From positions 1 through 27,460 of IMG/VR virus record IMGVR_UViG_3300032011_003344: DNA of 27,460 bases; one strand, written 5' to 3'. The notes below the pieces were generated by a model. The model was given only the letters and a program-made list of their open reading frames with translations, did no database searches and was not told where the DNA came from. A program made the translations under genes and the position numbers. The stretch's first letter is position 1; each line of letters opens with the position of its first letter. Of this stretch, positions 1 to 23,904 are shown piece by piece. This DNA comes from a virus.

Positions 1-1315
1 TAGCCTTGGTTGGCTTTACGATGCTCCTTTGATACTCTCCATCGTCCTTGTCCCAGACTTCTTCGCTCATTCTGTCCTCGATAAGAGACATAAGGGTGTT
101 CCAGTGGTTGTCTGAAATTCCTTGTGGAGCGTTTCCGCCAGTCTTCTGTGCAATAGTGTTGAGTGCTGACGCATATTTTGCTTTTTGCTTTGGCGAAGGG
201 TTGTCTGTAAGGTTGTGAACCATGTCTGACAACTTTACACGCAGGGTTGGAATGTCGCCTAGAAGATCTATAACGTAAGCTTGATAGTCTCCGCCCTTTT
301 CGTGAGTAAGAGCACGAACGACTCTGATAACTTCGTCGCCTGCTGCTGGATCTTGAATAGAGCCCTTGATGAACTCTTCCATCTCCTCTACAGAGGAAAC
401 AGTAGAGCCAGGTGCGTCTTCAAGCGAGTCGTGAAGCAATGCTGCTAATTGAGCTACCCTGTCTTTGGGATAGAACTTTGCTGTGATGTTTCTAACCTCG
501 GATGGGTGTGAGAAATACTCAGAACCATCTCTTCTTGACTGTCCAACGTGAGCCATTCTTGCTGTGTTGTAAACATCCTTGAAATCATCTGGTGAAAACT
601 TCTCCCTTAGTGCCATCTTGTTTTCAATCTTGCTCATAAACTTTTCTGTTGCTGGTGAAATCGTTGATGCCACATATGCCACTGTGCCCACAGCGCCCGT
701 CATGAAGCCAAGCCATTTTTCAAAACTTGCGGACTCTGATGCCGCCTTCTTTAAAATATCAAGTGCCAGGAAAGACTTTGCCTGCTCCAAGCCCTTTTCT
801 GCTGCTGCGGATGGTAGTGCATATGCGAGCTTCTTCAGTAACACTGCAACAGTAATCGCCAAGAGCACTTTTTTCCAACTATCTGCTGTCTTGGAGAGAT
901 ACCCAGATGCAGAATTGACATATTCAATAATCTTCTGAGCTATTCCTGTCGAAGATCTCTTAATCTTCTCCAGTGCCTTCCTAACGTTGTTAATCATCGG
1001 ATCGATAACCTCGGACTCTATTAGATCCACAAAGGGTCCGATGGTTTCCGAATTCTTCATCAACTTGTATATGGATTTAAATAGGTTAGGCACCTCTCCA
1101 GCCTTCTGCTTCACCCACTTCTTCATTGTATCCATGAATGCCTCAAAAACCATTTGCTCTGACAAGACATGTTCACGAAGCTCTGCGGTGTATTCTACCG
1201 AGCCGCTTTCTGACAAAGGAACTTGAATGCCGAGAACTTTTGTCACGTAAGAGTGGTTTTGGAGAAGCTCGTTTCTATCTTGGTAGATTCTCCACTGGGA
1301 CATTACATCGTTCAA
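1..1315 (-). CDS. Large protein with RelA/SpoT-type HD hydrolase domain, 3' end outside window
   Basis: An open frame of at least 438 codons runs off the left edge. The C-terminal half is a RelA/SpoT-class HD phosphohydrolase. All known Mn-binding and catalytic positions of the (p)ppGpp hydrolase fold have counterparts: R261, H270, H295-D296, E299-D300, D364 and N368, with spacings close to those in Rel enzymes (for example D364 to N368). Visible motifs are AHVGQSRRDG, LLHDSLED and KLSDMVHNL. Residues 1-235 match nothing I recognise; they include two hydrophobic stretches (about 150-167 and 202-219) that could be membrane-active. No synthetase domain appears in the roughly 65 residues after the HD core. 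The start is a TTG at 1315, 9 bases after a GGAG; an in-frame ATG at 1303 lacks a well-placed SD. The upstream gene stops at 1320. Substrate (ppGpp, NADPH or other) is inferred from the family only. Confidence 0.85.
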   Translation of the reverse strand, partial: MNDVMSQWRIYQDRNELLQNHSYVTKVLGIQVPLSESGSVEYTAELREHVLSEQMVFEAFMDTMKKWVKQKAGEVPNLFKSIYKLMKNSETIGPFVDLIESEVIDPMINNVRKALEKIKRSSTGIAQKIIEYVNSASGYLSKTADSWKKVLLAITVAVLLKKLAYALPSAAAEKGLEQAKSFLALDILKKAASESASFEKWLGFMTGAVGTVAYVASTISPATEKFMSKIENKMALREKFSPDDFKDVYNTARMAHVGQSRRDGSEYFSHPSEVRNITAKFYPKDRVAQLAALLHDSLEDAPGSTVSSVEEMEEFIKGSIQDPAAGDEVIRVVRALTHEKGGDYQAYVIDLLGDIPTLRVKLSDMVHNLTDNPSPKQKAKYASALNTIAQKTGGNAPQGISDNHWNTLMSLIEDRMSEEVWDKDDGEYQRSIVKPTKA

Positions 1316-1319
1316 TTTC

Positions 1320-1742
1320 TTATTCTCCTCTTTCCGTCAGCTTGCTCTTCACGATTCGCCTGACTGCTTCTCTAAGAGATGGATTCCTGTCGGCGACTGA
1401 AGGTATAGCTTCTTCAGGAGATTCTGGAGCGAAGTCCTCTTCTTCTGAAAATCCGAGAGCTTCGAGGGCTGTCTCAATTTCATCCGATAAAGGTTCAGAG
1501 CCTGCCATGGCGGCGAAAATCGACTTGAACTCTTCCATTGCCTCTCCAGCAGACATAACCTCGATATCCCTCTCAGACTTCATCTTCTTGATGGCTTTTG
1601 CAGTAATCTTCGAGAAGTTAACAGATTTGCTGTCCTTCCAGGGAGACTCTTTTCCAGGGTTGAGCCAGGGGCTTGTTTTGGTGGAAGTCCATGCATTCTC
1701 TTTTATATACTTCTTCCAATTATCTAACGGTTTGTTACTCAT
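1320..1742 (-). CDS. Hypothetical protein, 140 aa
   Basis: I do not recognise this protein. The N-terminal 60 residues are basic and rich in Trp, Lys and Ser (three W residues within SPW/NAW-type contexts), followed by a short helix-rich middle and an acidic stretch near residues 95-112 (EEEDFAPESPEE), ending in a basic helix. There is no signal peptide or membrane segment. ATG at 1742 has AGGA 8 bases upstream. Its stop lies 4 bases before the TTG start of the HD-domain gene, so the two are probably translated from one message. A long plus-strand frame across it is only an antisense shadow. Confidence 0.75.
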   Translation of the reverse strand: MSNKPLDNWKKYIKENAWTSTKTSPWLNPGKESPWKDSKSVNFSKITAKAIKKMKSERDIEVMSAGEAMEEFKSIFAAMAGSEPLSDEIETALEALGFSEEEDFAPESPEEAIPSVADRNPSLREAVRRIVKSKLTERGE

Positions 1743-6279: not shown

Positions 6280-7863
6280 CTATTCGGACTCAACAATTCC
6301 GTGGGAAGTTGTAATAAGTGTTCCTGCTGCGGACACAGCGTTTAGAAGGGCGGTTTTTGTTACCTTGAGTGGATCGATGACACCAGCTTGATACAAGTCT
6401 GTAATCTCTCCAGTTGCAAAGTTGTAGCCGGAGCCTGTCTTCGACTCACTGACTGTCTTCTCTGTAAGATCTACCGACATGCCTGCATTGGAAGCCATCT
6501 TGCGGAGTGGTGCCGAGACTGCTGATAAAACAATCCTTGCGCCAAGTGCCTGATCAGCATTGTTTGTCTCCAAAGTGTCAGAATCAGCCACACGCCTAGC
6601 AGCCTGCACAAGAGCCGTTCCGCCTCCAGCCACAGTTCCTTCGTCCTGTCCCGAACGAACGGCTTGAAGAGCATCCTCTGCCCTGTGAAAGGCTTCCATC
6701 ATTTCAATTTCGGTAGTTCCGCCAATCTTGATAATAGCAACGCCAGAAGCAAGACGATTTACACGTCTTTGGATAGCCTCACACTCTTTTAGAGACTCTG
6801 TCTGTTCAATCTCTGTCTTGAGTTGTTCAATTCTTTCCTCGATGACGTCAGGATCTCCTGCTCCTCCGACAAAGGTTGCCCAAGCTTTTTTAGCCTCGCA
6901 TACTTTGACTGTTCCAAGGTGAGAAATATCTGCCTTGGCTAGGGACTGCTTTCCAGCAGGACCGAGAACAGTAGCACCTACTGAGGTAGCCAAGTCTTCA
7001 AGACAGGCTCTTCGTTCTTCACCATAGCCAGGTGCTCTAATAGCTGCGACTTTCATCGTGCCTCGTACAGCATTCATAATAAGTGCTGCGAGTGCTTGAT
7101 CTTGAACGTCCTCTGCTACAACGACAAGTGCTCTACCTTCTCGTGAAGCGACTTGTAGAGCAGGAAAGACTTGCTCGACGGTAGAGATAGCAGTGTCTGA
7201 AACAAGAACAAGTGCGTTCTCGTGTCGCATAGTCCATCTACGCTTGTCTGTTACGAACTGGGGTGAAAGATAGCCTGAATCTACCTGAAAGCCCTCAATA
7301 AGCTCTAATGAAGTTGAAGCAGAGTTTGCTGGCTCAATAGTAATAGCACCATCCTTGCCTGCTTTATCTACAGCCTCGGCAATGAGGTTCCCAAGGTGCT
7401 TGTCTCCATTGGCGGAGATAGTAGCGATGTGCTGAATGTCTGCAAGAGTCTCAATAGGACGAGAGTTTGCTTCCAATTCAGTTGCAATAGCCGTTACAGC
7501 CTTATCCATGCCTCGCTTAATCTCAACAGGTGAAATGCCTGCGGAAAGGTGAGCAGAAGCTTGTCGGAATATCTCGTGAGATAAGATAGTGGAAGTTGTT
7601 GTTCCATCTCCTGCCTCGTCTGCTGTTGCTTGGGCTGCTTGCTTGATAACCTGTGCTCCTAAATTAGCAACAGGATCATCCAGATCTACAAACTGGGCAA
7701 CAGTTACACCGTCTTTGGTGATAACCGGGCGTTCGCCTTTCTTTTGTAGGATAACATTTCTACCCTTGGGTCCGAGAGTAGCACCAACATTTTCTGCTAA
7801 TGTTGTTACACCCTCCAATAGTTTAGTTGATAGTTCTTGGTTATTAGAATAGATTTTGCTCAA
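6280..7863 (-). CDS. groEL: Chaperonin GroEL, 527 aa
   Basis: Full-length class I chaperonin. The ATPase residues are present: D51 in VITKDGVTVA, the GDGTTT loop at 85-90 with D86, and the AEDALQAVRS segment carrying the hydrolysis-linked Asp; VAGGGTAL follows. The apical region is continuous. The C-terminus stops at HGIVESE and lacks the Gly-Gly-Met tail that lines the cavity floor of bacterial GroEL, a point in favour of a phage-adapted form. The start is TTG 7863, with a strong GGAGG 5 bases upstream and no nearby ATG. It has its own promoter (7892-7920) and is separated by 13 kb from the GroES-like gene (20890). It probably folds phage capsid or replication proteins in place of or together with host GroEL. 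Confidence 0.97.
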   Translation of the reverse strand: MSKIYSNNQELSTKLLEGVTTLAENVGATLGPKGRNVILQKKGERPVITKDGVTVAQFVDLDDPVANLGAQVIKQAAQATADEAGDGTTTSTILSHEIFRQASAHLSAGISPVEIKRGMDKAVTAIATELEANSRPIETLADIQHIATISANGDKHLGNLIAEAVDKAGKDGAITIEPANSASTSLELIEGFQVDSGYLSPQFVTDKRRWTMRHENALVLVSDTAISTVEQVFPALQVASREGRALVVVAEDVQDQALAALIMNAVRGTMKVAAIRAPGYGEERRACLEDLATSVGATVLGPAGKQSLAKADISHLGTVKVCEAKKAWATFVGGAGDPDVIEERIEQLKTEIEQTESLKECEAIQRRVNRLASGVAIIKIGGTTEIEMMEAFHRAEDALQAVRSGQDEGTVAGGGTALVQAARRVADSDTLETNNADQALGARIVLSAVSAPLRKMASNAGMSVDLTEKTVSESKTGSGYNFATGEITDLYQAGVIDPLKVTKTALLNAVSAAGTLITTSHGIVESE

Positions 7864-7923: not shown

Positions 7924-9309
7924 TTATTCTTCGAATTTCTTAAATTCTATTTCTTCGCCACCATCGTTGCGACTGAAGGGTGAGATATAGTACCTAACAG
8001 GTAAAGAAACGTTCTGCACACCGCCGAATTCATCAAGATTATAGGAGATGTTCATTGAATCTAAATCGCCTAAAGTCAATTTCCCAGACTGAATGACGTT
8101 ATTTAGATTGGTGACGTCGGCTGCTGTGAAGCCCACCTTGGAACCACCTGAACCATACCTAGTCCTAAAGATAGGCAAATAAGCCTCTATGTCTGGGACT
8201 TGTGGGTTCAAAAAGGCTGCGTGCCCTGAGCCGGGCTCTACGTCCAGCTTGAAGCTGTCACCCTTCTTCTGTAGGGAAAGCTCCCCGATGAAGAGCGACT
8301 GAGCCATGTTCGAACCTTTGCCGTAAATGAGGTAGACTACCTGAGAAGCAATGGACTCATCATCCAGAAGTTGATAATATCCCTTTGAGCTTCGACTACC
8401 TGAGAAAATTCCTCGTTTCCACATAGATTCAGACTGGTTTATAAACCTAGTGGCTGCGATTTTCTGTTTCCTATTTAAACTCTTTATTGTGGATACCATT
8501 GCGGCATACCTTTCGAAACCGACTGCCTTGTGGGAAATCGTAAAGAGAGGCTTGCGATCGGGATCGAGGAGTCCAAAGTCTCCCACAGCAGTCTTGCTGC
8601 TCAATTTATCAATGCTGCCCACATTTTTGAAAACTTGCCCAAGGACTTCAACAGTTGCGGGAGTTTCAGGAGTGATACCTGCTTGCAAGAATTTTTCTTT
8701 TATGATCCCTAAGTGCTCATTTTCGGCTCGAAGCTCCTCTGGCTTCGTCTGTAGCCAAGTAATTTTTGTCTTTGCAACTGCGATCTTTCTGGTATATTCA
8801 CCTATCTCCTTAGCCGATGACATAGACGAAGTTGGAGCCTTCTTTCTATTTGCATCTGCAATATCTTGACGAGTAACTTTGTCTGCCAAGAAAAAAGTAA
8901 ATGTTCCACTATCCCCGCTCAAAGCTTGGCTGACGTAGAGCCGATCGTCAAGTCCATCTTCGGGTAGTTCTCCTAAAGATTTCAGTATACTCTTCGGAAC
9001 CTTGTCTGGACGAACATAATAAAACAGTCGGGAAGCTCTGATAGTGGCTTCTTCTAGTGAGTCCTCCTCCAAAGCGCCAAAACCAGCAGGTGCCGACTTT
9101 GAGCGTGCTTTTGGTGGATCTTCACTATAAGGATCGCCTCCTACCTTCTTGGTGCCCTTGGTGGACAATCGCTTGCCAGCATGCCCTTCAATAGAGCCAG
9201 CTTGCATAGCGTTCTCTAGCTCCAAATCAATCATTTCCATAATCAATTCAGCGTCTATCTTATTCTTTTTAGAATAGTGCTCTTCAATGAGCTTTTCCCA
9301 ATTAGCCAT
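7924..9309 (-). CDS. Uncharacterised phage protein, 461 aa, possible nuclease-like core
   Basis: No confident family. The first 80 residues are polar and low in complexity (basic and Ser/Pro-rich around 45-77). Residues 235-290 contain GDFGLLDPDRKPLFTISHK, that is Asp244, then two strands, then Ser-His-Lys261. An Asp followed by a strand and x-x-K resembles the core of PD-(D/E)xK nucleases, and I recall similar D...ISHK segments in phage proteins, but the usual D/E-x-K triplet is not seen. The C-terminal 150 residues are beta-rich. ATG 9309 has AAGGA 8 bases upstream. It follows clpP-like by 12 bases. Alternatives are a virion or assembly protein. Confidence 0.8.
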   Translation of the reverse strand: MANWEKLIEEHYSKKNKIDAELIMEMIDLELENAMQAGSIEGHAGKRLSTKGTKKVGGDPYSEDPPKARSKSAPAGFGALEEDSLEEATIRASRLFYYVRPDKVPKSILKSLGELPEDGLDDRLYVSQALSGDSGTFTFFLADKVTRQDIADANRKKAPTSSMSSAKEIGEYTRKIAVAKTKITWLQTKPEELRAENEHLGIIKEKFLQAGITPETPATVEVLGQVFKNVGSIDKLSSKTAVGDFGLLDPDRKPLFTISHKAVGFERYAAMVSTIKSLNRKQKIAATRFINQSESMWKRGIFSGSRSSKGYYQLLDDESIASQVVYLIYGKGSNMAQSLFIGELSLQKKGDSFKLDVEPGSGHAAFLNPQVPDIEAYLPIFRTRYGSGGSKVGFTAADVTNLNNVIQSGKLTLGDLDSMNISYNLDEFGGVQNVSLPVRYYISPFSRNDGGEEIEFKKFEE

Positions 9310-9321
9310 TTTAGTTTTCCT

Positions 9322-10065
9322 TTAGATAATGATGTCAGCAATGCCGAAGTCGACTGCTTGTTGTGCGTCTAAGTAAATGTTAACCTTCTTGTCCAACAAC
9401 TTCTTAACCATGCGCTTAGTCATGTCTGTCTCGGCAACAAGAGTTTCAATATATTTTTCTTGAATCCAACGAATCTCTTCCATCTCGTTTTCAAGGTTGT
9501 GCATTGCTCCATGAGTTCCGCCGATAACAGAGTGAATCATAACACGAGTGTTGCGTCCGATTCTTCGAGCGCCCTTGGTACCTGATGCGAGGATAAGAAC
9601 ACCTGCGGACATTACCTTGCCGATGCCGGTTGTAATGATAGGGCATTCTTCCTGAACAACTCTCATCATGTCACAGATGCCGAACATGTCGAGGGCTGAA
9701 CCACCATAAGTCGAAATAACCATCTCGATAGGCTCGATCTTCTCAACAATTTCAGAGTTAGGATCTGATGGATCTTCGAGAAACTTTTTCTTACCTGTCT
9801 CTTTGAGAGTTAACAGTCCAGCGACGATTTCCAGTGCCATTCGCTCGCCGACGTCGCCGATGACTGGAACAACACGGATCTTCTTTTCTGGCGCTGCTGC
9901 GCCGGACATTGGGGGGAGGACAATGATGGACTTGCCGCCGCCTGACAACTGATCGAGGAATTCCTCCTCCATTGCATCAAGTTCTTCTTCAGTAGGCTCA
10001 AGTTCTTCGGTGGCGGCTTGCTCCAACTCTTCAACCTTTTCTTGCTTTTTCTTCTTCTTTGACAT
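9322..10065 (-). CDS. ClpP-like serine protease, 247 aa
   Basis: ClpP/crotonase-fold protease. Family landmarks in order: STYGGSALDMFGICDMM near 118-134, the nucleophile in GKVMSAGV (Ser153), and RVMIHSVIGGTHG with His178. The C-terminal DAQQAVDFGIADII aligns with the ClpP handle and end; by ungapped alignment the triad Asp position is Asn229. The first 45 residues are an extension absent from cellular ClpP: poly-Lys, then a Glu-rich stretch, then SGGGKSII. In phages, ClpP-fold enzymes often serve as prohead proteases or work with host ClpX/ClpA; no Clp ATPase or capsid gene is visible here. It sits downstream of the acidic protein and P-loop protein and 2.2 kb upstream of groEL. ATG 10065 has a modest SD (GGGGA). 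Confidence 0.93.
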   Translation of the reverse strand: MSKKKKKQEKVEELEQAATEELEPTEEELDAMEEEFLDQLSGGGKSIIVLPPMSGAAAPEKKIRVVPVIGDVGERMALEIVAGLLTLKETGKKKFLEDPSDPNSEIVEKIEPIEMVISTYGGSALDMFGICDMMRVVQEECPIITTGIGKVMSAGVLILASGTKGARRIGRNTRVMIHSVIGGTHGAMHNLENEMEEIRWIQEKYIETLVAETDMTKRMVKKLLDKKVNIYLDAQQAVDFGIADIII

Positions 10066-10385: not shown

Positions 10386-11612
10386 CTACTTGTCTTTAGT
10401 AAGTAGGATGTTGCGAACCATTTCTTTGATTGTTGAGTGAAGTTCTTCTTCGTTGTACTGTTTTGGTGTGCCGAGTTCACGTGCAGTTGGATCACGCATC
10501 TTGCCATCGTCGCCCTGGACTGACTTGCCAAACTTCTTGCCTGCAACTTTCTGCTTTTTCTGTGCGTTCTTGAACATTCCCTCTGCGCCGCCCATGTCCA
10601 TAACAATTTGGGCTGCTTCTAAGATTTTTGGATTAGAAAGATAATCCTTATCCTCGGCAACAGTGGCAATAGCAAAGTCTGAAAGTCTATTTCCAAGAAA
10701 ACCACCTGATGCCTTTACCAAAGCTCTCATGCCTTCAGCAAGTTTTGCGCCCTTGGGGTTTTTACTTGGACCGAGAAGGGTTTCGAGATCTTTTGTAATC
10801 TTTTTAAGCAACTGGGCTGCATACTCTGGTGTATAAGGAACACCATCTTTGTTTCTTGAAGCGTCTACGTGAGCCTGAGTAAGTGGAATGTCTGTCCTAA
10901 GCTCGCCAGTAGACAAGTTGAAGAAGTTACCGTAGATGTCGTCACCTAAAACGTCCATAAACTCATAGCCATCAGTCTTGCCTGTGAGCAGGGTAAAGTA
11001 ACCTCTGTCCTGCTTAACCTCGTCCTGATATTGCAAGGAAATGTCCTTGGTTGGCTTACCAACAGTCCTGGCACGCTTCTTGTCTGTTTCCACAGAAACA
11101 TCTGTAGGGACGTTTATCATAATAACGCCGATGTCATAACCAGCCGTCTTCAACTCTTCCATTCTGACTGCCATTTTCATAACGTCTTCGCCAGTAGTGT
11201 CAAAAACGATAGGCTTTGCCTGGTTCAGCCAATCAAATGTCTGACTTTGAGTGGCATTTTGCAACTTTTCTCTAAAAGTTTGCTGTTTCTCAAAAGTATC
11301 TAAGTCTTCCTCTTTCGTAGCAAACTTGAGCGACAAGCCGAACTTGCCGAACTCTGCTTCAATCTTCTCATCTGGGTTTGAGGTTTCGAATTCTTTGGGA
11401 ACACCAATTTGCTTTGAAAAGAACGTCTTACCTGCACCTGCTGGACCTAGAATAAAGATAGCCTTAAACGGGTGCTTGAGCTTGTTGATTGCCTCGTCGA
11501 TTCTCTCCTGCTCTGTTAGGATCTTTGGTTCCTCAAGGAGCATCGATTCAGCTTGAGTTTGATGATATGCCTCTTTGATAAGGCTTTTCAGGGTTTTTAC
11601 GTTAATCTTCAT
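10386..11612 (-). CDS. P-loop kinase-like protein, zeta-toxin-like, 408 aa
   Basis: Residues 45-190 form a P-loop kinase domain: IFILGPAGAGKT with Walker A at 56-63, IVFDTTGE with D138 as the likely second-strand acid, then a GYDIGVIMINV strand and a KKRARTVGKP segment, the order seen in zeta-toxin/polynucleotide kinase-type proteins. Substrate is unknown. Both ends carry a short basic helix (KSLIKEAYHQ at the start, STIKEMVRNILL at the end) of the kind seen at the ends of virion-associated proteins in marine phages (my recollection, not a search). Residues 260-345 are an extra helical domain. ATG 11612 has AAGGAG 13 bases upstream, farther than ideal. It follows the terminator of the acidic gene by about 30 bases, so its own promoter is not obvious. 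Confidence 0.82.
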   Translation of the reverse strand: MKINVKTLKSLIKEAYHQTQAESMLLEEPKILTEQERIDEAINKLKHPFKAIFILGPAGAGKTFFSKQIGVPKEFETSNPDEKIEAEFGKFGLSLKFATKEEDLDTFEKQQTFREKLQNATQSQTFDWLNQAKPIVFDTTGEDVMKMAVRMEELKTAGYDIGVIMINVPTDVSVETDKKRARTVGKPTKDISLQYQDEVKQDRGYFTLLTGKTDGYEFMDVLGDDIYGNFFNLSTGELRTDIPLTQAHVDASRNKDGVPYTPEYAAQLLKKITKDLETLLGPSKNPKGAKLAEGMRALVKASGGFLGNRLSDFAIATVAEDKDYLSNPKILEAAQIVMDMGGAEGMFKNAQKKQKVAGKKFGKSVQGDDGKMRDPTARELGTPKQYNEEELHSTIKEMVRNILLTKDK

Positions 11613-11713: not shown

Positions 11714-12379
11714 TTATTTTAGAGAACGAAGTCGGGCAACAACTGCCTTGGTGATTTCTTCGAGTTGCTCTTCGGTAGTCTCGTCAACTTCCTCAGTAGC
11801 CTCTTCCACCTTCTCTTCTTCGTCTTCTTCCATCTTGTAGCCTTCGTCTACCTCTTCGTCTTCGTCCATATCGTAACCTTCGGAGACGGCTGCGTCTTCG
11901 TCGATAACTGCCTGAACTGCTTGAGCGATTCTTTCAGCAAGAGTAGGCTCTACTGTCTCCATCATCTCTTCTTCTTCTGCTGGCTCTGCGTCCATCTCTG
12001 GCTCTGCGTCCATTTCCATCTCTGGCTCTTCAGCAGGTGCCTCTTCTTCAGAATCAACACGCTCGGCAGGAACGCCAGTCTCTGCTTCAATAGCAGCAAG
12101 AACAGCGTCTACAAGTGACTCGATTTTGTCTTGAGGAACTTCTTCAGCAGCAGGTTCTTCCATTGCTGGTTCTTCAGCGCCCATCTCCATCTCTTCTTCT
12201 TCAACAACAACTTCTTCGTTGGTTGCTTCAGTCTCTTCAGTGGTAGTCTCTTCTGTATCTTCAGCCTGGATGTCAAGCTTCTCTGAAATTCTACCAACGA
12301 TGGTACCGAGAGCAGGAATACCTGCGATCGCTGCCATTCTCTTAATTTGTGCTTCTGAAAGCAACTGCTTCGTCTTCAT
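11714..12379 (-). CDS. Highly acidic repeat protein, 221 aa, possible scaffold or prohead core
   Basis: Begins with a compact helical segment (LSEAQIKRMAAIAGIPALG) and is then dominated by Glu, Asp, Ala, Met and Pro. Imperfect internal repeats are visible: EPEMEMDAEPEMDAEPAEEE around residues 119-138, and two EGY-x-M-x-EDEE units around 167-188. A second helix (ERIAQAVQAVIDED) and a basic C-terminal helix (TKAVVARLRSLK) frame the acidic parts. The plan suits a capsid scaffold or core protein that is cut by a protease; the ClpP-like protease downstream fits, but no capsid gene is in view. Start ATG 12379 has GAGGAG 7 bases upstream. A strong terminator follows, as expected for an abundant product. 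Confidence 0.8.
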   Translation of the reverse strand: MKTKQLLSEAQIKRMAAIAGIPALGTIVGRISEKLDIQAEDTEETTTEETEATNEEVVVEEEEMEMGAEEPAMEEPAAEEVPQDKIESLVDAVLAAIEAETGVPAERVDSEEEAPAEEPEMEMDAEPEMDAEPAEEEEMMETVEPTLAERIAQAVQAVIDEDAAVSEGYDMDEDEEVDEGYKMEEDEEEKVEEATEEVDETTEEQLEEITKAVVARLRSLK

Positions 12380-12714: not shown

Positions 12715-13043
12715 AAGTCTGGGTGTTCCCTTGCAATCATATCGAAGATGTCTTCTAGCTCTTCGTTTTCTAGGTTGAACTTTTCCTCTATCTCTGCCTG
12801 AGTCTTTTTTGCCTTTTCTTCTCTTTTTTGGACTCTCTTTGTCCTCTTTTGGCTCTTCTTTGGAGACTTCTCATCCATAAGTCGAACTGCCTGTTTCGAG
12901 AATTCATCGCCCTCAAGGAAGCTCGTGATTATCTGTCGGAAGAGCTTTGTTTGCGTCAAGCCGTACTCTCTTAGGCAGATCTTAAACTGAACATGTCGTT
13001 CTACAGTGTCATAGACTATAATCCTTTTACGATCATCCTTCAC
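12711..13043 (-). CDS. Ribbon-helix-helix-like putative DNA-binding protein, 110 aa
   Basis: Residues 5-48 have the strand-helix-turn-helix pattern of ribbon-helix-helix regulators: a short basic strand (RKRIIVYDT), a helix (VERHVQFKICLREYG), LTQTKLFRQIITSFLEGD as the second helix. A Lys/Arg-rich linker (about 58-82) and an acidic helical end follow. GTG 13043 has GGAGG 5 bases upstream and shares bases with the TGA of the GMP reductase-like gene. Coupling to the sigma-like gene by a second overlap suggests a regulatory pair. The family call is by pattern, not search. Confidence 0.7.
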   Translation of the reverse strand: MKDDRKRIIVYDTVERHVQFKICLREYGLTQTKLFRQIITSFLEGDEFSKQAVRLMDEKSPKKSQKRTKRVQKREEKAKKTQAEIEEKFNLENEELEDIFDMIAREHPDL

Positions 13044-14086
13044 GAGTACCTCCCAAAGATATGAGCAGCGGATTCAGCCCTGGAAGCTGCTGATTGTCTG
13101 ATAAACTTAGCTTTGTGACGGAAGTCTTCAAGATTTGTAACGCCAGAGTATGAAAGACTAGAACGAAGTCCTTGATCAATTTCATATAATATTTCAATCG
13201 CCGGTCCTCTGCAAGGGACGGTTGTAGAGACACCTTCAATGGATGAAAACTTACCTCGCCAATCATTTTGTGCAGCTTTTGACGCCATCCCTCTAAAATT
13301 TTTCCGCAAGTTTCCGTCCTTGTCTTCAAAAGTCGAGCCTGGCGTTTCGTCCGTCCCTGAGAGAAGTGAGCCCACCATAACCAAGTCCGCCCCTGCTGCT
13401 AATGCCTTGGCTGCATCTCCAGAACTCCTGATTCCGCCGTCGGCGATGATCATAGTCTCTCCCGCAAGCTCAGACTGGGCGCAATCGAAGATAGTGTGCA
13501 AACCTGGGACGCCGTGTCCAGTCTGGATTCTTGTGGTACAGATAGAGCCTCCTCCGACATTGCATCGAACTGAGTCTGCTCCCCACTTTGCCAATGCTTC
13601 GAAGCCCTCACGAGTTGCGACATTGCCAGCCATCACGTGTAAGTATTCTGGTGCCCAAGACTTAATCGCATCAAGTGCATTCTTCATCAGAAGATGATGT
13701 CCGTGAGCTACGTCTACACAAATAACGCTTGCTCCCGCCGTAACCAACTCCTTTGTTCTCTCAAGGTAGTCTCCCGTTACACCAACGGCTGCGCCAGTGA
13801 GAAAACCGCCGTTTTTGACAGCAGTCTTCATGAGGCTTACCTGTTGATCGACAGTATTGTACCTGTGAATTATACCGAGTCCGCCCATTTTGAACATTGT
13901 TGTTGCCATTGTTGAGCCCGTAATTGTATCCATAGGACTCGAAACAATTGGAAGGGACAAGTGCATATTAGGCTCAAGGTTGACTCCAAGATCTACCTGT
14001 GTTCTCGACTCAATTTGAGAGTACTGAGGTACCAACAGGACGTCATCGTAAGTAATTGCGTCGATCTTGTTGATAATTTTAGCCAT
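13040..14086 (-). CDS. GMP reductase / IMP dehydrogenase family enzyme, 348 aa
   Basis: A TIM-barrel enzyme of the IMPDH/GMPR family without the CBS domains of most bacterial IMPDH. Seen: TYDDVLLVPQYSQ at 12-24, the catalytic loop GGGSICTTRIQTG with Cys183 and Thr185, the phosphate-binding GGIRSSGD near 217-224 and GS near 239-240, and RGMAS at 265-269. Length and the short flap (from RGMAS to SIEG, with Glu284, and no RYFQ-type IMPDH segment) fit GMP reductase, which makes IMP from GMP with NADPH. IMPDH activity cannot be ruled out. ATG 14086 has GGAGGG upstream inside the previous gene, which it overlaps by 8 bases. In a phage it would shift the purine pool, possibly recycling host guanine nucleotides toward adenine nucleotides. 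Confidence 0.92.
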   Translation of the reverse strand: MAKIINKIDAITYDDVLLVPQYSQIESRTQVDLGVNLEPNMHLSLPIVSSPMDTITGSTMATTMFKMGGLGIIHRYNTVDQQVSLMKTAVKNGGFLTGAAVGVTGDYLERTKELVTAGASVICVDVAHGHHLLMKNALDAIKSWAPEYLHVMAGNVATREGFEALAKWGADSVRCNVGGGSICTTRIQTGHGVPGLHTIFDCAQSELAGETMIIADGGIRSSGDAAKALAAGADLVMVGSLLSGTDETPGSTFEDKDGNLRKNFRGMASKAAQNDWRGKFSSIEGVSTTVPCRGPAIEILYEIDQGLRSSLSYSGVTNLEDFRHKAKFIRQSAASRAESAAHIFGRYS

Positions 14087-14924: not shown

Positions 14925-17900
14925 TTATGCTAATAATTTAAAATTATGTCGTAACGATCTCGTGGAAAAACCCCACTGATCGTGATAGTCCAATCGTGCC
15001 ATATAGGGCTTGTTTAGTTCCACATGATCATTTTCACGAACTCCCCAGCATTTGATTGCATTGAGTGTCGAAGTGGAGTCTATGACTTTCACTATCCAAT
15101 AAACCTTTCCGTTCTTTGTTTTTCTTGGAACGATTTCTCGTGGGATAAACCAGGCAACTGGAACCTCTGGCATGAAGTCTCCAAGTGGAGGAATCATGTT
15201 ATCATCTAACTGCTTCATAACCTCTTCAGACATAACAAGGTGAATAGGAAACATTCCCGTTAGGCTTACTTGATATTCAATCATCTCCTGAGACGTGAAG
15301 TCTCCTTCAGGTGCAAACTTCTCGATGTTCTCGTTGAATCTCTTCTTCGTCTTTGCTCTATCGACTGCAACTGCCGACCAGAAGTGTTTGAGCCCAGTGA
15401 AGCGTTCGTCGACGAGACTGTTGAGGGCTTTTGAACGCACGAGGACGTCGAGAGCCTTCTTGTTTAACTTAGAATAGACAATTCTATCGTGGAATAAGAA
15501 GTCCTCAATAGTCTCGAATGGACGGAAGTTTAATATCTGATCAATAGCGGCGTCGCCGAGTCCCTTAACAGATGAAAAGGGCTGAATAAGCGCTCCGTCG
15601 TCTCCGATAGTCCAATTCTTTGTGGACAAATTAATATCAAGAGGGCGTATTTCAAACCCCATCTTCTTAGCAGTGTTGATGGCACGCTCTTTTCTTGACT
15701 CTGGTTCTTTATCCAAGAATGCAGCCATCCACTCAACTGGATAGTAGTTTAATAGCCAAGCACACTGGTAAGATAGAATAGAGTAGGAAACTGCGTGAGA
15801 CTTATTGAAACCGTAACCTGAGAAGAACTCAAATGTTTCCCAAAGCTTTTCGGCTTCTTTTCTCGTCATATCTTTCTCAACGCAACCATCAACAAACTTG
15901 TGGAAGATTTTCATCTTCTCTTCTGCGCCCTTGCCTGTGCCCTTCTTAGTAAGCAACTTGCGGAGAAGGTTTCCTTCATCGAGGCTAATGTCCTTGCCTA
16001 GCTTGTGAGCAAGAAGAGCAATTTGTTCCTGAAAGATAAGGAAGCCATAAGTTTCTTCTGTAATCTCTCGGATAGTTTCATTAGCATAATTAACGTCATC
16101 AGGGTTGCTCTTTGCTGCAACATAGTTTCTATCAACCTTTGCCGAAAGAGGACCGGGACGGAAGATGGAAGTAATCGCTGAAATATCAATGATGCTTCTG
16201 GGCTTTGCATTTACACAAAAGTTTTGAGCGCCTGTCTCGGTGAACTGAAACACTCCTGCCCACTTGCCTTTATGGAAGATGTTCTCATAAACATCTTGAT
16301 CATCGAAGTCAATAACATCAGGGTGAAGCTTTTCAGCATAGTACTTCTTTACGTCGGCGAAGGTAGGCTTTCTAACTCCGTGATGGCGAGTAAGGATAGA
16401 ACGGATGGCGTCTTCCATCATTCGCAGAGAAGCAAGTCCAAGAATATCAAACTTGATAAAACCCATTGGCTCTAGGTGTCGGACATTTTGTCCTTCGCTC
16501 CAGGGCGTTTGGCGGACTCCTCCTGAGGCAATAAGGGGCATGTGTTTGTGGAGATCGTCTGCGATTACTACACCACCTGCATGGCGGGATGATGAACGAA
16601 CTTGTCCATAAAGAGCTTCAACGTGAGTCTTTACGTGAGGATATTGCTTTAGGAACTTCTGTAAAGTCTCTGAAAACTCCATAACTTCTTCAAATGTCGG
16701 GGTGTAGACACCTGCGGACAAGCCATGCTTTGCTTTTGCTTTTGGTGTAGCCTCTGCAAGCATTCTACCAGTTACGTTATTCACCTCGTTAAAAGGAATC
16801 TTGTAGAACTTGGAAATATCCTTGATAAGAGAGCGCAACTGTAAGGTGTTCCAATTTGTGATAGGAACAACGGTGTTCTCACCCCACTCTTCTACGAGCT
16901 TTTCTTTTAGAAGCATCGGAGAGGCAACGTCATAGTCGATGTCTGGATAGTCTGTTGCATCTGCTCGCAAGAAACGAGAGAAAAGTAGCCCGTACTTAAT
17001 TGGATCAACTTGGGTAATACCGAGAACATAGGCAACAAGTGAACCTGCTGCTGAACCTCTGCCCGGTCCCGTGAGCTGTTCTTGGACTGCTCTGTCCGCA
17101 ATAGCTTTCATAGTAAGGAAATACTTTGAAAAACCTCGTTCCGAAATAACCTCCAATTCTCCTTTGAGTCTGTCAACATATTCTTGGCTATCGGACAAGT
17201 TAAAGTTTCGTAAACCTTCAATGGAAGCTGCAACAAGAGCTTGAGTAGCAGTCTTTCCTGGTGGAACAACAAAGTCAGGTAGGCGGACTTCATCATTGGG
17301 GAAGAAGGTTTCAATCATTTCGTGAGCAATAGTGTGAGTGCTTTTGATAGACTCTAAAATAAGATCGTCGTCATATTCAACGCCTGCATCTTCAGAATAC
17401 TTTTTATAACTCTCCCACATTTGATCGCCATTCTTTGGGTAAAGCTCGTAGCCTACCTCTTCGACATCAACAGGAAGTTCAGAGTCCATCTCTTTACCTT
17501 TACCGAGCCAGCCAAGCTTCTTGTAGAGAATCCTGTCTTTCCAAGTGTCTGGTGTAGGGTAGTGGCTATCGGCTGTAGAGACAAGAGTGATGTTGAACTC
17601 TTTGGCGATTTGGATAACATATTTATTTAAGTCGTGTTGTTCTGGAATGTTATTCCATTGTAACTCTGCGAAGAATCTATCTCCAAAGATAGAAGTCATC
17701 TTGGAGGCGGTTTCTCTCATAGCGTCGAGAATAGCCTCTGAACCCTGCTCCTTGTTTCTCCACATGTCGCCAGCAAAAAGTCCCCCAAGGCACGCTGTGG
17801 ACACAATAACGCCCTCTGAATGCTTTTCTAAAAGAGCATAGTCGATTCTTGGGAAACGATAGAAGTAATCACCCTGAAATGACTTGGAAACCATCTGAAA

Positions 17901-18341
17901 GATGTTCTCTAAACCCGTCTGATTCTGGGCAAGAAGGACAAGATGACTGCGCCTGTTGACGATAGACTTATAAGTTCTTACCTCTGTCTCAACCACAGCG
18001 CCAGAAGTATTATTATCACGCAAGGCTGCGGCGTTCTTCTTATTCTTCTTGGCTTCTTCCATGTCTTCTTTCCACTGTTCAATGGAAGGATGGAAATAAG
18101 CCTCTACACCATAGATAGGCTTAAACTCTTTACCTGACTTGTGCATCTTCTTGGCGTGAAGAACCTGCGCCGCTAATCCATTGAGATTACCATGATCCGT
18201 GAGGGCAAATGCGTCTAGTCCATTCTCATAGGCAGCGGACATGTGCTCATCTGGATATCCAAGTGCGTCAAACGGTGAACCTGCGACAGAATGAGCGTGA
18301 AGCCCTACGAAAGGGATGGTTGATTCTAATCGTTCAGTCAT
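14925..18341 (-). CDS. dnaE: DNA polymerase III alpha subunit (C-family replicase), 1138 aa
   Basis: A complete bacterial-type DnaE. N-terminal PHP domain with its metal ligands apparently intact: H15/H17, D49-H50, E80, H133, C184, D258 and H260, so a PHP exonuclease may be active. Polymerase core: GPGRGSAAGS at 425-434, the catalytic pair in YPDIDYD (D467, D469), RHAGGVV at 586-592 and FIKFDILGL with the third Asp (D632). A helix-hairpin-helix region follows, with YGFNKSHAVSYSILSYQ, and a C-terminal OB-like part. No separate epsilon proofreading or clamp-loader gene is in this window. ATG 18341 has GGAGG 7 bases upstream and overlaps the previous stop (ATGA). It is the last gene of the unit from the 21450 promoter, and is the phage's probable main replicase, working with the DnaB-type helicase at 23907. 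Confidence 0.97.
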   Translation of the reverse strand: MTERLESTIPFVGLHAHSVAGSPFDALGYPDEHMSAAYENGLDAFALTDHGNLNGLAAQVLHAKKMHKSGKEFKPIYGVEAYFHPSIEQWKEDMEEAKKNKKNAAALRDNNTSGAVVETEVRTYKSIVNRRSHLVLLAQNQTGLENIFQMVSKSFQGDYFYRFPRIDYALLEKHSEGVIVSTACLGGLFAGDMWRNKEQGSEAILDAMRETASKMTSIFGDRFFAELQWNNIPEQHDLNKYVIQIAKEFNITLVSTADSHYPTPDTWKDRILYKKLGWLGKGKEMDSELPVDVEEVGYELYPKNGDQMWESYKKYSEDAGVEYDDDLILESIKSTHTIAHEMIETFFPNDEVRLPDFVVPPGKTATQALVAASIEGLRNFNLSDSQEYVDRLKGELEVISERGFSKYFLTMKAIADRAVQEQLTGPGRGSAAGSLVAYVLGITQVDPIKYGLLFSRFLRADATDYPDIDYDVASPMLLKEKLVEEWGENTVVPITNWNTLQLRSLIKDISKFYKIPFNEVNNVTGRMLAEATPKAKAKHGLSAGVYTPTFEEVMEFSETLQKFLKQYPHVKTHVEALYGQVRSSSRHAGGVVIADDLHKHMPLIASGGVRQTPWSEGQNVRHLEPMGFIKFDILGLASLRMMEDAIRSILTRHHGVRKPTFADVKKYYAEKLHPDVIDFDDQDVYENIFHKGKWAGVFQFTETGAQNFCVNAKPRSIIDISAITSIFRPGPLSAKVDRNYVAAKSNPDDVNYANETIREITEETYGFLIFQEQIALLAHKLGKDISLDEGNLLRKLLTKKGTGKGAEEKMKIFHKFVDGCVEKDMTRKEAEKLWETFEFFSGYGFNKSHAVSYSILSYQCAWLLNYYPVEWMAAFLDKEPESRKERAINTAKKMGFEIRPLDINLSTKNWTIGDDGALIQPFSSVKGLGDAAIDQILNFRPFETIEDFLFHDRIVYSKLNKKALDVLVRSKALNSLVDERFTGLKHFWSAVAVDRAKTKKRFNENIEKFAPEGDFTSQEMIEYQVSLTGMFPIHLVMSEEVMKQLDDNMIPPLGDFMPEVPVAWFIPREIVPRKTKNGKVYWIVKVIDSTSTLNAIKCWGVRENDHVELNKPYMARLDYHDQWGFSTRSLRHNFKLLA

Positions 18342-19431: not shown

Positions 19432-20161
19432 CTTTAAATTTCTCCATTAGAAAGTTCAGGTATGAATGTGTACTCGATTTAGGCTTGATTTGGGGATCGT
19501 GTACAAATGTGATCCTGTCGGTGTCCTGGTGGACGTGTCTCCCAAGGGGAGTTATCGTCCTATAAGATGACTCTATCTTGGGCAATGCGTTTGTGCGTTC
19601 TGACAGTAACTCCTCTACACGGAACCTTGCATAAAGCTCTGAATACTCTTCTGTGTTCAGTTCTTCAGACTCAAGGACACTCACTGCACAGACGTCTCTC
19701 AAGTCGGGGCGATCTGCCCTTGATGATTTGTAGAATTTCACGCTCTCTACAAAACTCTGCCCTGTTCCAAAATCTTCTACAGAAGGGGGAAGTATACCTC
19801 GGACATCCATATAATCGTGAACCAATGCCTTGGTTGAAGTTGACATTGATGGCATTGGCAGTCCGAGTAGAGTATCGTCGAAAACAAAAAGATTTTGACA
19901 TGTCACTTCATGTCGCTTGCTCGAAGTTAACAGAGAAACACCCTGTTCGTCGGATTGAAGCCTAATTGAAATAACTTTTTCAGCAAAAGGAATTAGTCCG
20001 GCGAGGGATAAGAAAAAATATGTCTCGTGCCAGTTCGCTACTTTGGACGCCTCATAAAACGGAGGGAGTTCAGGTTTGCTATAAATGAGTGCATAGCCAT
20101 TCCTCATTGCGAAGAACAGAGAATCTAATGTTGCACCGATGACAAGATTCTCATGATGCAT
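19421..20161 (-). CDS. Uncharacterised protein with Rossmann-like N-terminus, 246 aa
   Basis: Begins MHHENLVIGATLDSLFFAMR followed by NGYALIY, that is strand, small-residue turn, helix, strand, which is the start of a Rossmann-type fold, though the G-x-G-x-x-G of FAD/NAD enzymes is reduced to G-A-T. The rest is mixed, with a basic C-terminus. I recognise no family. The true start is probably ATG 20161, which overlaps the thyX stop as TGATG and has AGGA 6 bases upstream; a TTG one codon earlier is also in frame. Overlap with the next gene (11 bases) suggests the two products work together. Confidence 0.75.
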   Translation of the reverse strand: MHHENLVIGATLDSLFFAMRNGYALIYSKPELPPFYEASKVANWHETYFFLSLAGLIPFAEKVISIRLQSDEQGVSLLTSSKRHEVTCQNLFVFDDTLLGLPMPSMSTSTKALVHDYMDVRGILPPSVEDFGTGQSFVESVKFYKSSRADRPDLRDVCAVSVLESEELNTEEYSELYARFRVEELLSERTNALPKIESSYRTITPLGRHVHQDTDRITFVHDPQIKPKSSTHSYLNFLMEKFKDAT

Positions 20162-20889
20162 CAATGTTCCTGTCGGTTGGCTCGGTAGGCTGCGATGGTG
20201 TGTGGGTAGTGTGGTTCGATTAATTCCAGCATTGCCTTTGCGACTTGCTGAATCTCGAACTGGGCTCCTTCGTGATCCCGAAGCCCAATAAACTTCAGAG
20301 CGTTCAGCAGAGAAGTTGAGCCAATATATGTCGTATAGAGATTTTGGGGAAGGACTCCTCTTGCCTGCTCTCTACAGACACCCTTTTCTAAAAGAGTATT
20401 GAACAAATCAAGGCAAGACTTGTGATGCCATCTAATAGCTTCATCTGCCGGGCGGGGCGAAGAGGGTACGAGAGATGAACCGCTGTAATCTCTCAAATCT
20501 GGATTAATGCCATCTTCGTTGCTTGCTTGCCTATTGCTCTCATGTTGAGTCCTGAAAGACTTTGGCTCATAGAACTGAATGTCTACATCAGTGTAGCGAC
20601 GTGAAATCTCGTTATAGCTCCAAGTTCTATGTCGGTGGTGTTGGGAGCGAACAAAAAGAGGGACAACAAACTTAAACGTCAAGAAGCAGTGTTCCAGCGT
20701 AGAAGTGTGTTTGTGCTTTACAAGATAGTTAATAAGTTTTTTATCTTTCTCGTCAAGCTCTTTTTTCTCAACGCCGAAACTCACCCTTGCAGCATTAACA
20801 ACGGATAAGTCGTTTCCTACTGCTTGGACAAGCTCTACTTTACCGATATTATCTCCGTAGAGATATAGTGTATTTCCCTCTTTGCTCAT
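20161..20889 (-). CDS. thyX: Flavin-dependent thymidylate synthase ThyX, 242 aa
   Basis: The ThyX signature R-H-R-x7-S is present as RHRTWSYNEIS (R86 to S96), followed by RRY. The upstream VVNAARVSFG segment and C-terminal LRDHEGAQFEIQQVA fit the family, with the usual length. The enzyme makes dTMP from dUMP using methylene-tetrahydrofolate, FAD and NADPH, and would take dUMP made by the dUTPase. ATG 20889 has GAGG 5 bases upstream. It follows the GroES-like gene without a gap and overlaps the next gene by 1 base. Confidence 0.96.
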   Translation of the reverse strand: MSKEGNTLYLYGDNIGKVELVQAVGNDLSVVNAARVSFGVEKKELDEKDKKLINYLVKHKHTSTLEHCFLTFKFVVPLFVRSQHHRHRTWSYNEISRRYTDVDIQFYEPKSFRTQHESNRQASNEDGINPDLRDYSGSSLVPSSPRPADEAIRWHHKSCLDLFNTLLEKGVCREQARGVLPQNLYTTYIGSTSLLNALKFIGLRDHEGAQFEIQQVAKAMLELIEPHYPHTIAAYRANRQEH

Positions 20890-21159
20890 CTATCCCTCAA
20901 CATAACCTAAGACATAATTTTCAGAAACAAGACTTACTTTGTTGCCAGCAACTTCAACTTGCTGCAACATATTCGAAGGAAAGACTATATAACTGCCCTG
21001 CTTCCACTCAGTATTGCAATCTTGGGAGACTGCCACAACCTTCGCAACCTCGAACTCTGCTTTTGGCTGAAAGCCCTCGGGCAAGAGAACATCTTTCTGC
21101 TCTTCTTGCTCCGAAGCCTTTAGTTCCAATAAAAGATTTCTATTGGTAGGTGTGAACAT
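20890..21159 (-). CDS. GroES/gp31-like cochaperonin, 89 aa
   Basis: Small beta protein with GroES features in order: TPTNRNLLLELK as the first strand, a mobile loop with the hydrophobic VLLPEGF in the place of the GroES IVL tripeptide region, FEVAKVVAVSQ, GSYIVFPS for the GDxVxF strand, and VSENYVLGYVEG for the final strand (bacterial form: SESDILAIVEA). Sequence is divergent, more like T4 gp31-type cochaperonins than cellular GroES. It is the natural partner for the phage GroEL at 6280. Its ATG overlaps the stop region of the preceding 85-aa gene, with a weak SD, so translation may depend on coupling. Confidence 0.82.
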   Translation of the reverse strand: MFTPTNRNLLLELKASEQEEQKDVLLPEGFQPKAEFEVAKVVAVSQDCNTEWKQGSYIVFPSNMLQQVEVAGNKVSLVSENYVLGYVEG

Positions 21160-21486: not shown

Positions 21487-23904
21487 TTACCCACACTGGG
21501 CGTAGCCACAATCTTTACAAGTCTTGCAGCCGTCTTGGTAAATCATCCCCGTAGTGCTTCCACACTCTGGACAAGTCTTATCACTCACTTCGGTTCCATC
21601 AACAATGTAGTTCTTTAAGATTCTGGAAACACACTTTGAGAATGAGAACATGTCGCTGCCCTTATCCTTTTGTAGTTGCTCTACCATAAACCTTACCTCT
21701 GAACCATGTCGCAAACCAAGTGAAATCATTCTTGTAAAAGCTGAATTGTTCGGGTTATCGAACACCTTTACAACATCTTTTATAACACCGTCTTCACCGA
21801 AAGTCAAGTCATATCTGTTATCTTTTGTTTTAAAAGAATTCTTTTTCAAAGAGCCTGACTTGTGCTTCTTTGGAATCTCGATAAGGCTTGACTCTCCACC
21901 GAGAATCTCGTAAGGCTTGCCGTCCATCTTACCAACAAGGATTGTCCAAGGCTTACCTTGAATGCTTGTGTGGTGAATGTCGCACTCCAACTCTTCTGGG
22001 CGCTTGGGTGCTGAACGCTGTGGAAACTCCTCTGTTGTAGTTGCCTCGTTGTTCGTAACTAAAACGCCTGAACGTGATCCGTCAACATAAACTGTGATTC
22101 CCTTTAACCCTCGTTTCCAACCTTCTCGATAAAGTCGTTCAACTACTGCTGGCTCTGTGCCTGCTGGTAAGTTGATGGTTGATGAGATAGCGTGATCGAT
22201 AGAGTTCTGAATAGCTTCTTGAATCTCCACTCGCTTCATCCAGTCAATTTGATCCGACTCAACAAAGAAGCTTGGAAGCTCCTGCCCTGGGTTTTGAGCT
22301 AACCACTCTTGTGCGTTGTGGTGAAATACCTGAAACTCTTTCCAGCCGTCGCCCAACTCATCTACAAAGTCTGGCGTGATGTCTACCTCGTCGTGAGATA
22401 ACTTGCGGCGTCTAATGTAGGAGTTCCTGAACACTGGCTCCAAGCCTGAACTTGTCTGGGACATAATAGAAACTGAACCAGTTGGAGCGTTCGTCAAGAT
22501 AGAAATGTTTCTTCTACCGTGACGGGCAATGTTTTCTTTTAAGTCTTGAGGAAGACGTTGGATAAAAGCATTATTTTGCTCTTTACCCCAGTTGAAAACA
22601 GGAAATGAGCCACGCTCTGTTGCAAGGTTTAAGGACTCGCCATAAGCAGTGTTACGAAGTGTCTCGTAAATGCCTGTAATAACTTTAATGGCTTCGTCGC
22701 TGTCGTAGGCAAGGTTCATTCTAGCAAGAGCATCAGCCAAGCCGTGAGTTCCCAAGCCAGTCCTTCTTCCGTCAGCAGCAGCAGATAATAGCTTCGTCCA
22801 AAGCTCTGTCTCGTCTGGAGTGTCGGCTGCGTCGAGAATCTTGTTTAACTTCTCTAGCTCTAGCTCAACCAAGTCGTCTGAAAGTCGCATAGCAGTTGAA
22901 ACCGTCTCTGTAAACTTCTGGAAGTCGAACCTTGCTTGTCCTGTGAAAGCATTGTCAACAAAATTCTTTAGGTTCACTGAAATAAGACGACAAGAGTCAT
23001 AAGCTGAAAGAGGAATCTCCGCACAAGGGTTTGTGCAAATAGTTGCGAAACCTTCTTCCTTATATTCATTTGCTGGTAAGTTGTCGCAAATGTTGTCCCA
23101 CATTAGAATACCTGGCTCTGCTGTCTCTGTTGCTGACTGAACAATCTGATCCCAAACTTCACGAGCACGAACTTCCTTTGTGTAGATTGGCTCGTCGCTT
23201 CCGATGGGGAAGTGAAGGTTGTAAGTCTCGTCAGCTTCTACTGCTCGCATAAAGTCGTTAGTAATCTTTACTGAAACGTTAGCACCTGTAACCTTTGTCA
23301 AGTCGTGTTTCATCTTTACGAAGTGTGCGATGTCTGGATGGCGAACATCCATAGAAATCATTAGAGCGCCTCGTCTGCCGTTCTGCCCAATCATTCTACA
23401 AACATAAGAATAAAAGTCTGCAAACGACCAAGCGCCGGTTGTTGTGCCTGCCGAATTGTTAACGACAGAGCCGTCTGGACGTAATTCACTAATGTCCAAG
23501 CCAACGCCGCATCGGCGTTTGAACAGGTTCGCTAAATCTCGCCCTGAGTTGATGATAGAGGAAACGTTGTCCTCGGGTGAAGAAACTACTACGCAGTTTG
23601 ATAAAGAAACATTTACGTGGTTGTTTCCGATGCCCATCATAGGCGAACCTTGAGGGACAATGTAAGCAAAGTTGTCGAGATGATTAAAAATCTTCTCTTC
23701 GGTTAGGGCACGAGGACCTCCGAACTTTGTTTCCATTCTAGCAAACTCCGACGCAAGACGCTTGTGCATGTCCCGTGGAGTCAGTTCTTGAAAGTTGCCT
23801 TCTCTATCTTTGAGGCAATATTTCGTCATAAAGACGTTGGTGGCGAGTTCATCGCCTTGGAAGTAATCTAAGGTTGCCTTCCTTACCTGTTCTTCTGTAT
23901 ACAT
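21487..23904 (-). CDS. nrdJ: Adenosylcobalamin-dependent (class II) ribonucleotide reductase, 805 aa
   Basis: Full-length class II reductase. The thiyl cysteine is in NPCAE (C294, with N292 and E296 as radical-site partners). The redox pair is Cys104 in LSNCVVV and Cys305 in DSCRLISVNL, 11 residues after C294 as in this family. GTEPAVVERLYREGWKRGLK and ITVYVDGSR are typical barrel-end segments. The C-terminus is a Cys-rich ribbon (778, 781, 793, 796, 799 and 804) that should relay electrons. It works without oxygen dependence or an NrdB subunit but requires B12 from the host or medium. ATG 23904 follows the helicase stop by two bases, with AAGGAG 11 bases upstream. Confidence 0.97.
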   Translation of the reverse strand: MYTEEQVRKATLDYFQGDELATNVFMTKYCLKDREGNFQELTPRDMHKRLASEFARMETKFGGPRALTEEKIFNHLDNFAYIVPQGSPMMGIGNNHVNVSLSNCVVVSSPEDNVSSIINSGRDLANLFKRRCGVGLDISELRPDGSVVNNSAGTTTGAWSFADFYSYVCRMIGQNGRRGALMISMDVRHPDIAHFVKMKHDLTKVTGANVSVKITNDFMRAVEADETYNLHFPIGSDEPIYTKEVRAREVWDQIVQSATETAEPGILMWDNICDNLPANEYKEEGFATICTNPCAEIPLSAYDSCRLISVNLKNFVDNAFTGQARFDFQKFTETVSTAMRLSDDLVELELEKLNKILDAADTPDETELWTKLLSAAADGRRTGLGTHGLADALARMNLAYDSDEAIKVITGIYETLRNTAYGESLNLATERGSFPVFNWGKEQNNAFIQRLPQDLKENIARHGRRNISILTNAPTGSVSIMSQTSSGLEPVFRNSYIRRRKLSHDEVDITPDFVDELGDGWKEFQVFHHNAQEWLAQNPGQELPSFFVESDQIDWMKRVEIQEAIQNSIDHAISSTINLPAGTEPAVVERLYREGWKRGLKGITVYVDGSRSGVLVTNNEATTTEEFPQRSAPKRPEELECDIHHTSIQGKPWTILVGKMDGKPYEILGGESSLIEIPKKHKSGSLKKNSFKTKDNRYDLTFGEDGVIKDVVKVFDNPNNSAFTRMISLGLRHGSEVRFMVEQLQKDKGSDMFSFSKCVSRILKNYIVDGTEVSDKTCPECGSTTGMIYQDGCKTCKDCGYAQCG

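Follow-up and report, generated by a model that had tools for sequence, protein, structure and literature searches.

What does a RelA/SpoT-type hydrolase domain do in a long viral protein, and could it be carried inside the virion? The question arose from a reading frame at the left edge of the window, meaning the whole stretch of DNA analysed here, which is an entire IMG/VR record and a fragment of 27,460 bases. The original prediction had described an HD hydrolase domain fused to a long N-terminal region, and had named delivery as part of the virion as one possible role.

The HD gene and its enzyme family

The frame was real and was located on the minus strand (1315..2). The gene starts with a TTG at 1315 and runs for 438 codons without a stop, leaving the contig at position 2. 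As predicted, part of the protein lies beyond the window. Contig IMGVR_UViG_3300032047_002378 (L002) showed 100% identity over the 438 aa, continued past the window edge and supplied the full C-terminus in an intact ORF of 568 aa, which disposes of a frame broken just outside the window. L002 may share a sampling campaign with the window record, so its independence as an observation is uncertain. The 568-aa protein consists of an N-terminal region (residues 1-236), the HD domain (residues 239-414, pI 5.3) and a C-terminal part that is basic (pI 10.0) and includes a module with Cys. The two hydrophobic stretches reported earlier in the N-terminal region were both found. The features of the gene are as follows.

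2..1315, minus strand: the HD ORF, with 438 aa inside the window; its full 568-aa form is at L002:8001-9707
1325..1330, minus strand: Shine-Dalgarno-like GAGGAG, 9 nt before the TTG at 1315, read from the sequence
1268..1315, minus strand: N-terminus MNDVMSQWRIYQDRNE, a W..Y variant of the tags MKLIMESWRDYQNEQQ, MTELLENWRDYQETQ and ITDNWQKYLREN of neighbour genes in the lineage
608..1315, minus strand: orphan N-terminal region, residues 1-236, pI 9.0
812..868, minus strand: hydrophobic stretch 1, residues 150-168, VLLAITVAVLLKKLAYALP
656..712, minus strand: hydrophobic stretch 2, residues 202-220, LGFMTGAVGTVAYVASTIS
602..610, minus strand: LRE, residues 236-238, of L/I-x-E type, at the N-terminal boundary of the HD domain
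74..601, minus strand: predicted RelA/SpoT-type HD hydrolase domain, residues 239-414 (profiles, PDB match, alignment and model)
77..85, minus strand: LIE, residues 411-413, likewise of L/I-x-E type, at the C-terminal boundary of the HD domain

Because profile, PDB sequence and fold matches agree, the HD domain is assigned by sequence and model to the RSH/SAH hydrolases. The HD homology is beyond chance: the protein was matched by PHROG 990, 'metal-dependent phosphohydrolase' (E 2.5e-21), and by the NCBIfam RelA/SpoT models (2.9e-11). Pfam HD_4 gave 2.2e-5 on the window HD protein, slightly below the cut-off, and was above the cut-off in the related proteins from L003 and L004; in the complete ORF of L002, HD models were the sole significant Pfam matches, the others being weak and sub-threshold. 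Tth Rel was the best hit in the PDB sequence search (1e-10), followed by Rel and RelA, with MESH1 weaker. An AlphaFold2 model of the domain, built from eight sequences, had a pLDDT of 88.8, and its top PDB folds were Tth Rel with ppGpp, C. glutamicum RelH and MESH1; P. aeruginosa SAH ranked lower. The fold matches included a (p)ppApp hydrolase, and the characterised enzymes that rank among the best folds are only ~18-26% identical to the domain. Taken against the chance that the domain belongs to an unrelated HD family, the SpoT-type assignment held through PHROG 990, NCBIfam, and Tth Rel in both sequence and fold.

The catalytic residues listed earlier (H270, H295-D296, E299-D300, D364 and N368) were correct at every position. 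All seven were invariant in an alignment of 8 phage proteins (58-100% identity), in which position n of the first sequence is residue n+235. The HD fold and the H...HD...ED...D..HN set by which an RSH/SAH HD domain is recognised were thus both present, as they are in MESH1, RelH, Pa SAH and the hydrolase half of RelA/SpoT/Rel. The RelA_SpoT synthetase domain (PF04607) was not found in the HD ORF or in five related phage records (control positive in 12/14 genomes), which indicates that the protein is no fragment of a long RSH and not evidently the antitoxin of a toxSAS pair. A hydrolase without a synthetase domain is the arrangement of the small alarmone hydrolases (MESH1, RelH, Pa SAH). Known SAHs are compact, at about 180-200 aa, whereas the window HD domain is one module of a multi-part protein of 568 aa; the relatives in L047 (192 aa) and L091 (206 aa) come close to the compact form.

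(p)ppGpp is the candidate substrate; the conserved core does not reveal specificity, and characterised SAHs cleave (p)ppApp and NADPH too (PMC9765508; PMC7644958). PHROG 990 and the phage SAHs of PVP-SE1 and SSU5 are phage HD hydrolases of the same family. The bacterial genomes searched gave only two distant matches (28-29% identity), which makes the close HD family phage-borne in the collections searched.

Changing flanks and short terminal motifs

A long fused N-terminal region does occur in the window copy, but it is not the defining trait of the protein; seven phage relatives have the HD domain and lack the 235-residue region. Sequence comparison instead resolves the 'fusion' as a modular array, in which the eight phage HD proteins share the HD domain and differ in nearly all of their flanks. 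The L003 and L086 proteins start with ...ITDNWQKYLREN... and the HD domain follows directly, those of L004 and L044 start with MKINRRQIRKLILE and MKIAKYQLRKFIRE, each then followed by the HD domain, and in the 619-aa protein of L046 it is preceded by ...LRKIIKERLK. The L047 and L091 proteins are nearly stand-alone HD domains, with the C-terminal ends ...IRLLIRETLLF and ...LKSVIREMIFYSMAKK, respectively. C-terminal modules are shuffled as well: the gene after the HD gene in L002 begins with MTELLENWRDYQETQ, and a 664-aa protein of L086 unites the window Cys module with modules of this next gene. No relatives of the 235-residue region were found by phmmer over all fetched loci and the viral_contigs scan, except in the identical contig. 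Homology of these 235 residues to the tagged neighbour genes was considered and rejected, the alignment being limited to the first 16 residues.

The termini were compared with the capsid-targeting sequence (CTS) of phage T4. The N-terminal decapeptide of IPIII, MKTYQEFIAE, is sufficient for packaging, with residues 4 and 7 serving targeting and residues 8 and 10 processing; targeting persisted when processing was lost (PMC9026906). The protease gp21 cleaves after L/I-x-E, Alt undergoes trimming at each end, and CTSs have been suggested as a general packaging route for various proteins in T4-like phages (PMC9026906). According to a review, a 10-residue propeptide is removed from gp24 (PMC9958956). 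In the T4 proteins read from NC_000866, IPII and IPIII start with MKTYQEFIAE and gp24 with MAKINELLRE, and gp23 has ...FLTE at residue 65. The pattern [LIVMFYW]..[LIVMFYW][LIVM].E, representing CTS positions 4, 7, 8 and 10, was used as the CTS-like motif. In T4 it was found in 4/9 head-core and shell proteins versus 4/60 others (p = 0.008), and Alt did not match it; given these T4 counts, the pattern is informative, yet neither complete nor clean. The motif is a short one and also turns up by chance in enzymes such as GroEL, and L/I-x-E sites are common.

In 7/8 phage HD proteins, a CTS-like motif was located no more than 22 residues from the HD domain, where random stretches drawn from the same proteomes would give 0.43. 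It was N-terminal in L003/L086, L004 and L044, internal in L046 and C-terminal in L047 and L091. The probability of this result is 8e-9 if the proteins are taken as independent, and the eight are related; despite this kinship, tags at non-homologous places would require several separate gains. The N-terminal tags of L003, L004, L044 and L086 contain an L/I-x-E cleavage site. The tags of the set include MKIAKYQLRKFIRE, MTNKITDNWQKYLRE and, in the window, MNDVMSQWRIYQDRNE. Phage HD proteins without a tag beside the HD domain are also known, in Aeromonas GomatiRiver_11 and BcepSaruman. As a side observation, homologous proteins from two other phages (L057 12866-13456 and L075 5491-6168; 34% identity over 149 aa) sit behind the differing CTS-like tags MNLLREYIRQLLTE and MENWRKFLNE, the same cargo with a swapped tag.

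The window copy is the weakest member of the HD set, since no strict CTS-like match was found in its HD protein and the cleavage residues are missing. Its N-terminus (MSQWRIYQD) has W..Y at CTS positions 4/7 and is not closed by [LI]xE, an LRE being present at the HD boundary; MNDVMSQWRIYQDRNE and MKLIMESWRDYQNEQQ, the latter from a tagged gene of L003, give a gap-free alignment. Two near-matches in the C-terminal part, EELRGRVREA and EALRTRVREA, scored 9.1 and 9.7 on a matrix built from the N-termini of other phages. Such scores arise at ~1 per thousand enzyme positions and are modestly unusual at this protein length, so the two are only suggestive as tags. Cutting at LRE 236-238 and LIE 411-413, sites of a common kind, would release an HD module of ~20 kDa. 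For the suggestion of delivery in the virion, the recurrence of a T4-CTS-like motif beside the HD domain thus gives comparative support, while the window copy itself has no strict motif.

Tagged genes, the prohead protease and the window contig

The window record is a fragment without head genes. A gp21-type prohead protease (PF03420) was found in the HD carriers G007 and G009 and in the RecA relative G003, a near relative of the window phage (E 4e-26 to 5e-33). It was not found in the partial HD-carrying records G010 and G011 (71 and 75 kb). The gene right after or close after gp21 carries a similar N-terminus in G007, G009 and G003. Genome-wide, the N-terminal motif was present in 29/175 genes of G007 versus 7.2 in shuffled sequences (maximum 16 among 200 shuffles), in 15/161 of G003 versus 6.0 and in 13/116 of G009 versus 3.8, with genes called by a simple custom gene caller. 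The HD protein of G007 has the N-terminus MKIAKYQLRKFIRE, and its gene lies within a run of tagged genes (11/16, versus 18/159 elsewhere, p = 1e-6). These tagged neighbours had no Pfam family and no convincing PHROG match. No T4-type late-promoter signal was found before the tagged genes of these phages.

Two paralogous tagged proteins of L044 (11322-12059 and 12056-12751; 37% identical) have R..., SSW and EKE motifs. An ADP-ribosyltransferase, suggested by eye for L044:11322-12059 (R / SSW / EKE), was not adopted: Pfam and PDB sequence searches were silent, ADPrib_exo_Tox was not found, and the model (pLDDT 36) was unusable, leaving the assignment a guess.

The other genes of interest on the window contig are as follows.

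1320..1742, minus strand: upstream gene, 140 aa, with the N-terminal CTS-like motif MSNKPLDNWKKYIKEN
6280-7863, minus strand: full-length GroEL, 527 aa, 3.5e-166
7924..9309, minus strand: 461-aa protein of unknown family, with the CTS-like N-terminus MANWEKLIEE
9322-10065: ClpP-family protein
10386..11612, minus strand: P-loop kinase (Zeta_toxin/AAA_33) with the CTS-like N-terminus MKINVKTLKSLIKEA, a second candidate packaged enzyme
11714-12379, minus strand: 221-aa protein, very acidic and of low complexity, start MKTKQLLSEA, possibly scaffold-like
13040-14086, minus strand: IMP dehydrogenase/GMP reductase family enzyme, 348 aa, best match TIGR01302 (2.5e-80)
14925-18341, minus strand: DNA polymerase III alpha (bacterial-type)
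20161-20889, minus strand: ThyX
20890-21159, minus strand: small GroES-type co-chaperonin-like protein, by eye, with no NCBIfam match
21487-23904, minus strand: adenosylcobalamin-type ribonucleotide reductase

In G007, the gene at 75088, after a putative major capsid gene, encodes a P-loop protein that differs from the window kinase and carries a similar motif. The window DNA polymerase III alpha is ~30% identical to its best cultured-phage matches, and it occurs, together with ThyX and the ribonucleotide reductase, in a lineage whose relatives possess a head module of T4 type. The window IMPDH is too short to hold a CBS regulatory domain, and its alignment is with PDB IMPDH chains that are themselves short (about 360 aa). 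The CBS part of IMPDH is the site of nucleotide regulation. An IMPDH free of this regulation would fit a purine/alarmone theme alongside an alarmone hydrolase, which is suggestive only.

Possible roles of the HD protein

For the packaging, cleavage, ejection, substrate and purpose of the HD protein, we infer from sequence the following scheme, to which we give just short of an even chance: an SAH-type HD enzyme is packed in a T4-type head by means of CTS-like tags, trimmed, and ejected with the DNA, removing alarmone. The enzyme would be a Mn-dependent 3'-pyrophosphohydrolase of (p)ppGpp, and perhaps of (p)ppApp or NADPH too, mounted as a head-core 'internal protein' in a phage with a T4-type head. 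Its terminal CTS-like motifs would recruit it into the prohead core at head assembly, and its L/I-x-E sites would be the points of trimming by a gp21-type protease. The mature enzyme would then leave the head together with the DNA and, in the new host, may clear alarmone already there or made in the first minutes. This would keep transcription, translation and GTP synthesis going before phage gene expression.

Phage SAH-type enzymes are known, as are packaged enzymes in T4-type heads (Alt). Like T4 IPI/IPII/IPIII and Alt, the tagged HD proteins have a short terminal hydrophobic motif ending in L/I-x-E, with similar tags on unrelated cargos, and a gp21-type protease, here in related genomes. 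Alt is, moreover, an enzyme trimmed at both ends; for the HD protein, packaging is a proposal. Unlike the T4 internal proteins, the cargo would be an alarmone hydrolase, multi-module proteins have tags in their interior as well, and the window copy has no cleavage consensus. L047 and L091 differ from the SAHs they resemble by the CTS-like motif at their end. The polyvalent proteins of phages and plasmids are likewise multi-domain and proposed to enter with DNA, and some have alarmone-related domains, but these are RelA/SpoT synthetases, with an activity opposite to that of the window HD domain; the term 'HD domain' was not found in the text of that report (PMC5512222). The literature searched, which covered few subscription journals, gave no description of a packaged alarmone hydrolase.

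An ordinary phage alarmone hydrolase, expressed during infection and acting in the cytoplasm, with flanks that are recombination debris or aids to oligomerisation or localisation, is a serious candidate that we hold to be rather doubtful. Stand-alone phage HD hydrolases with no HD-adjacent tag are common (e.g. the Aeromonas and BcepSaruman proteins), the SAHs of PVP-SE1 and SSU5 counter a toxic alarmone synthetase in vivo (PMC7644958), and the missing strict tag of the window copy agrees with such a role. It leaves unexplained, however, the 7/8 tags at different ends, the clustering of tagged genes and the similar N-termini beside gp21. It is unlikely that the protein is packaged and acts on some other nucleotide, i.e. 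NADPH as in MESH1, the (p)ppApp of toxic synthetases or a defence signal nucleotide. The presence of MESH1 and a (p)ppApp hydrolase among the folds, and the low identity to characterised enzymes, would allow this, but in both sequence and fold the top matches are HD domains of long RSHs, the best one bound to ppGpp.

That the HD domain is dead and retained as a structural part of the head core seems very improbable: the modular, possibly structural context and basic flanks (pI 9-10) are in keeping with it, but the metal-binding and catalytic residues are invariant in 8 proteins, down to 58% identity, which argues against a purely structural domain, as this would not need them. Hardly credible is an antitoxin of a phage-borne toxSAS-type pair, a role that SAH enzymes do serve (PMC7644958), as no adjacent toxic synthetase gene was found as a partner, RelA_SpoT was not seen in the five related records or among the window ORFs, and PADLOC gave no match.

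For packaging of the HD enzyme in the head, the more general proposal, which is tentative and falls noticeably short of even, is that phages with T4-type heads carry a virion alarmone hydrolase behind exchangeable tags, among other tagged cargo, injected before phage expression against the stringent response or alarmone-based defence. If true, the phage would act on the starvation signal of its host at time zero. The tag could then reveal, from sequence alone, which proteins uncultured T4-type phages inject, and the tagged neighbours in G007 would be candidate host-takeover proteins.
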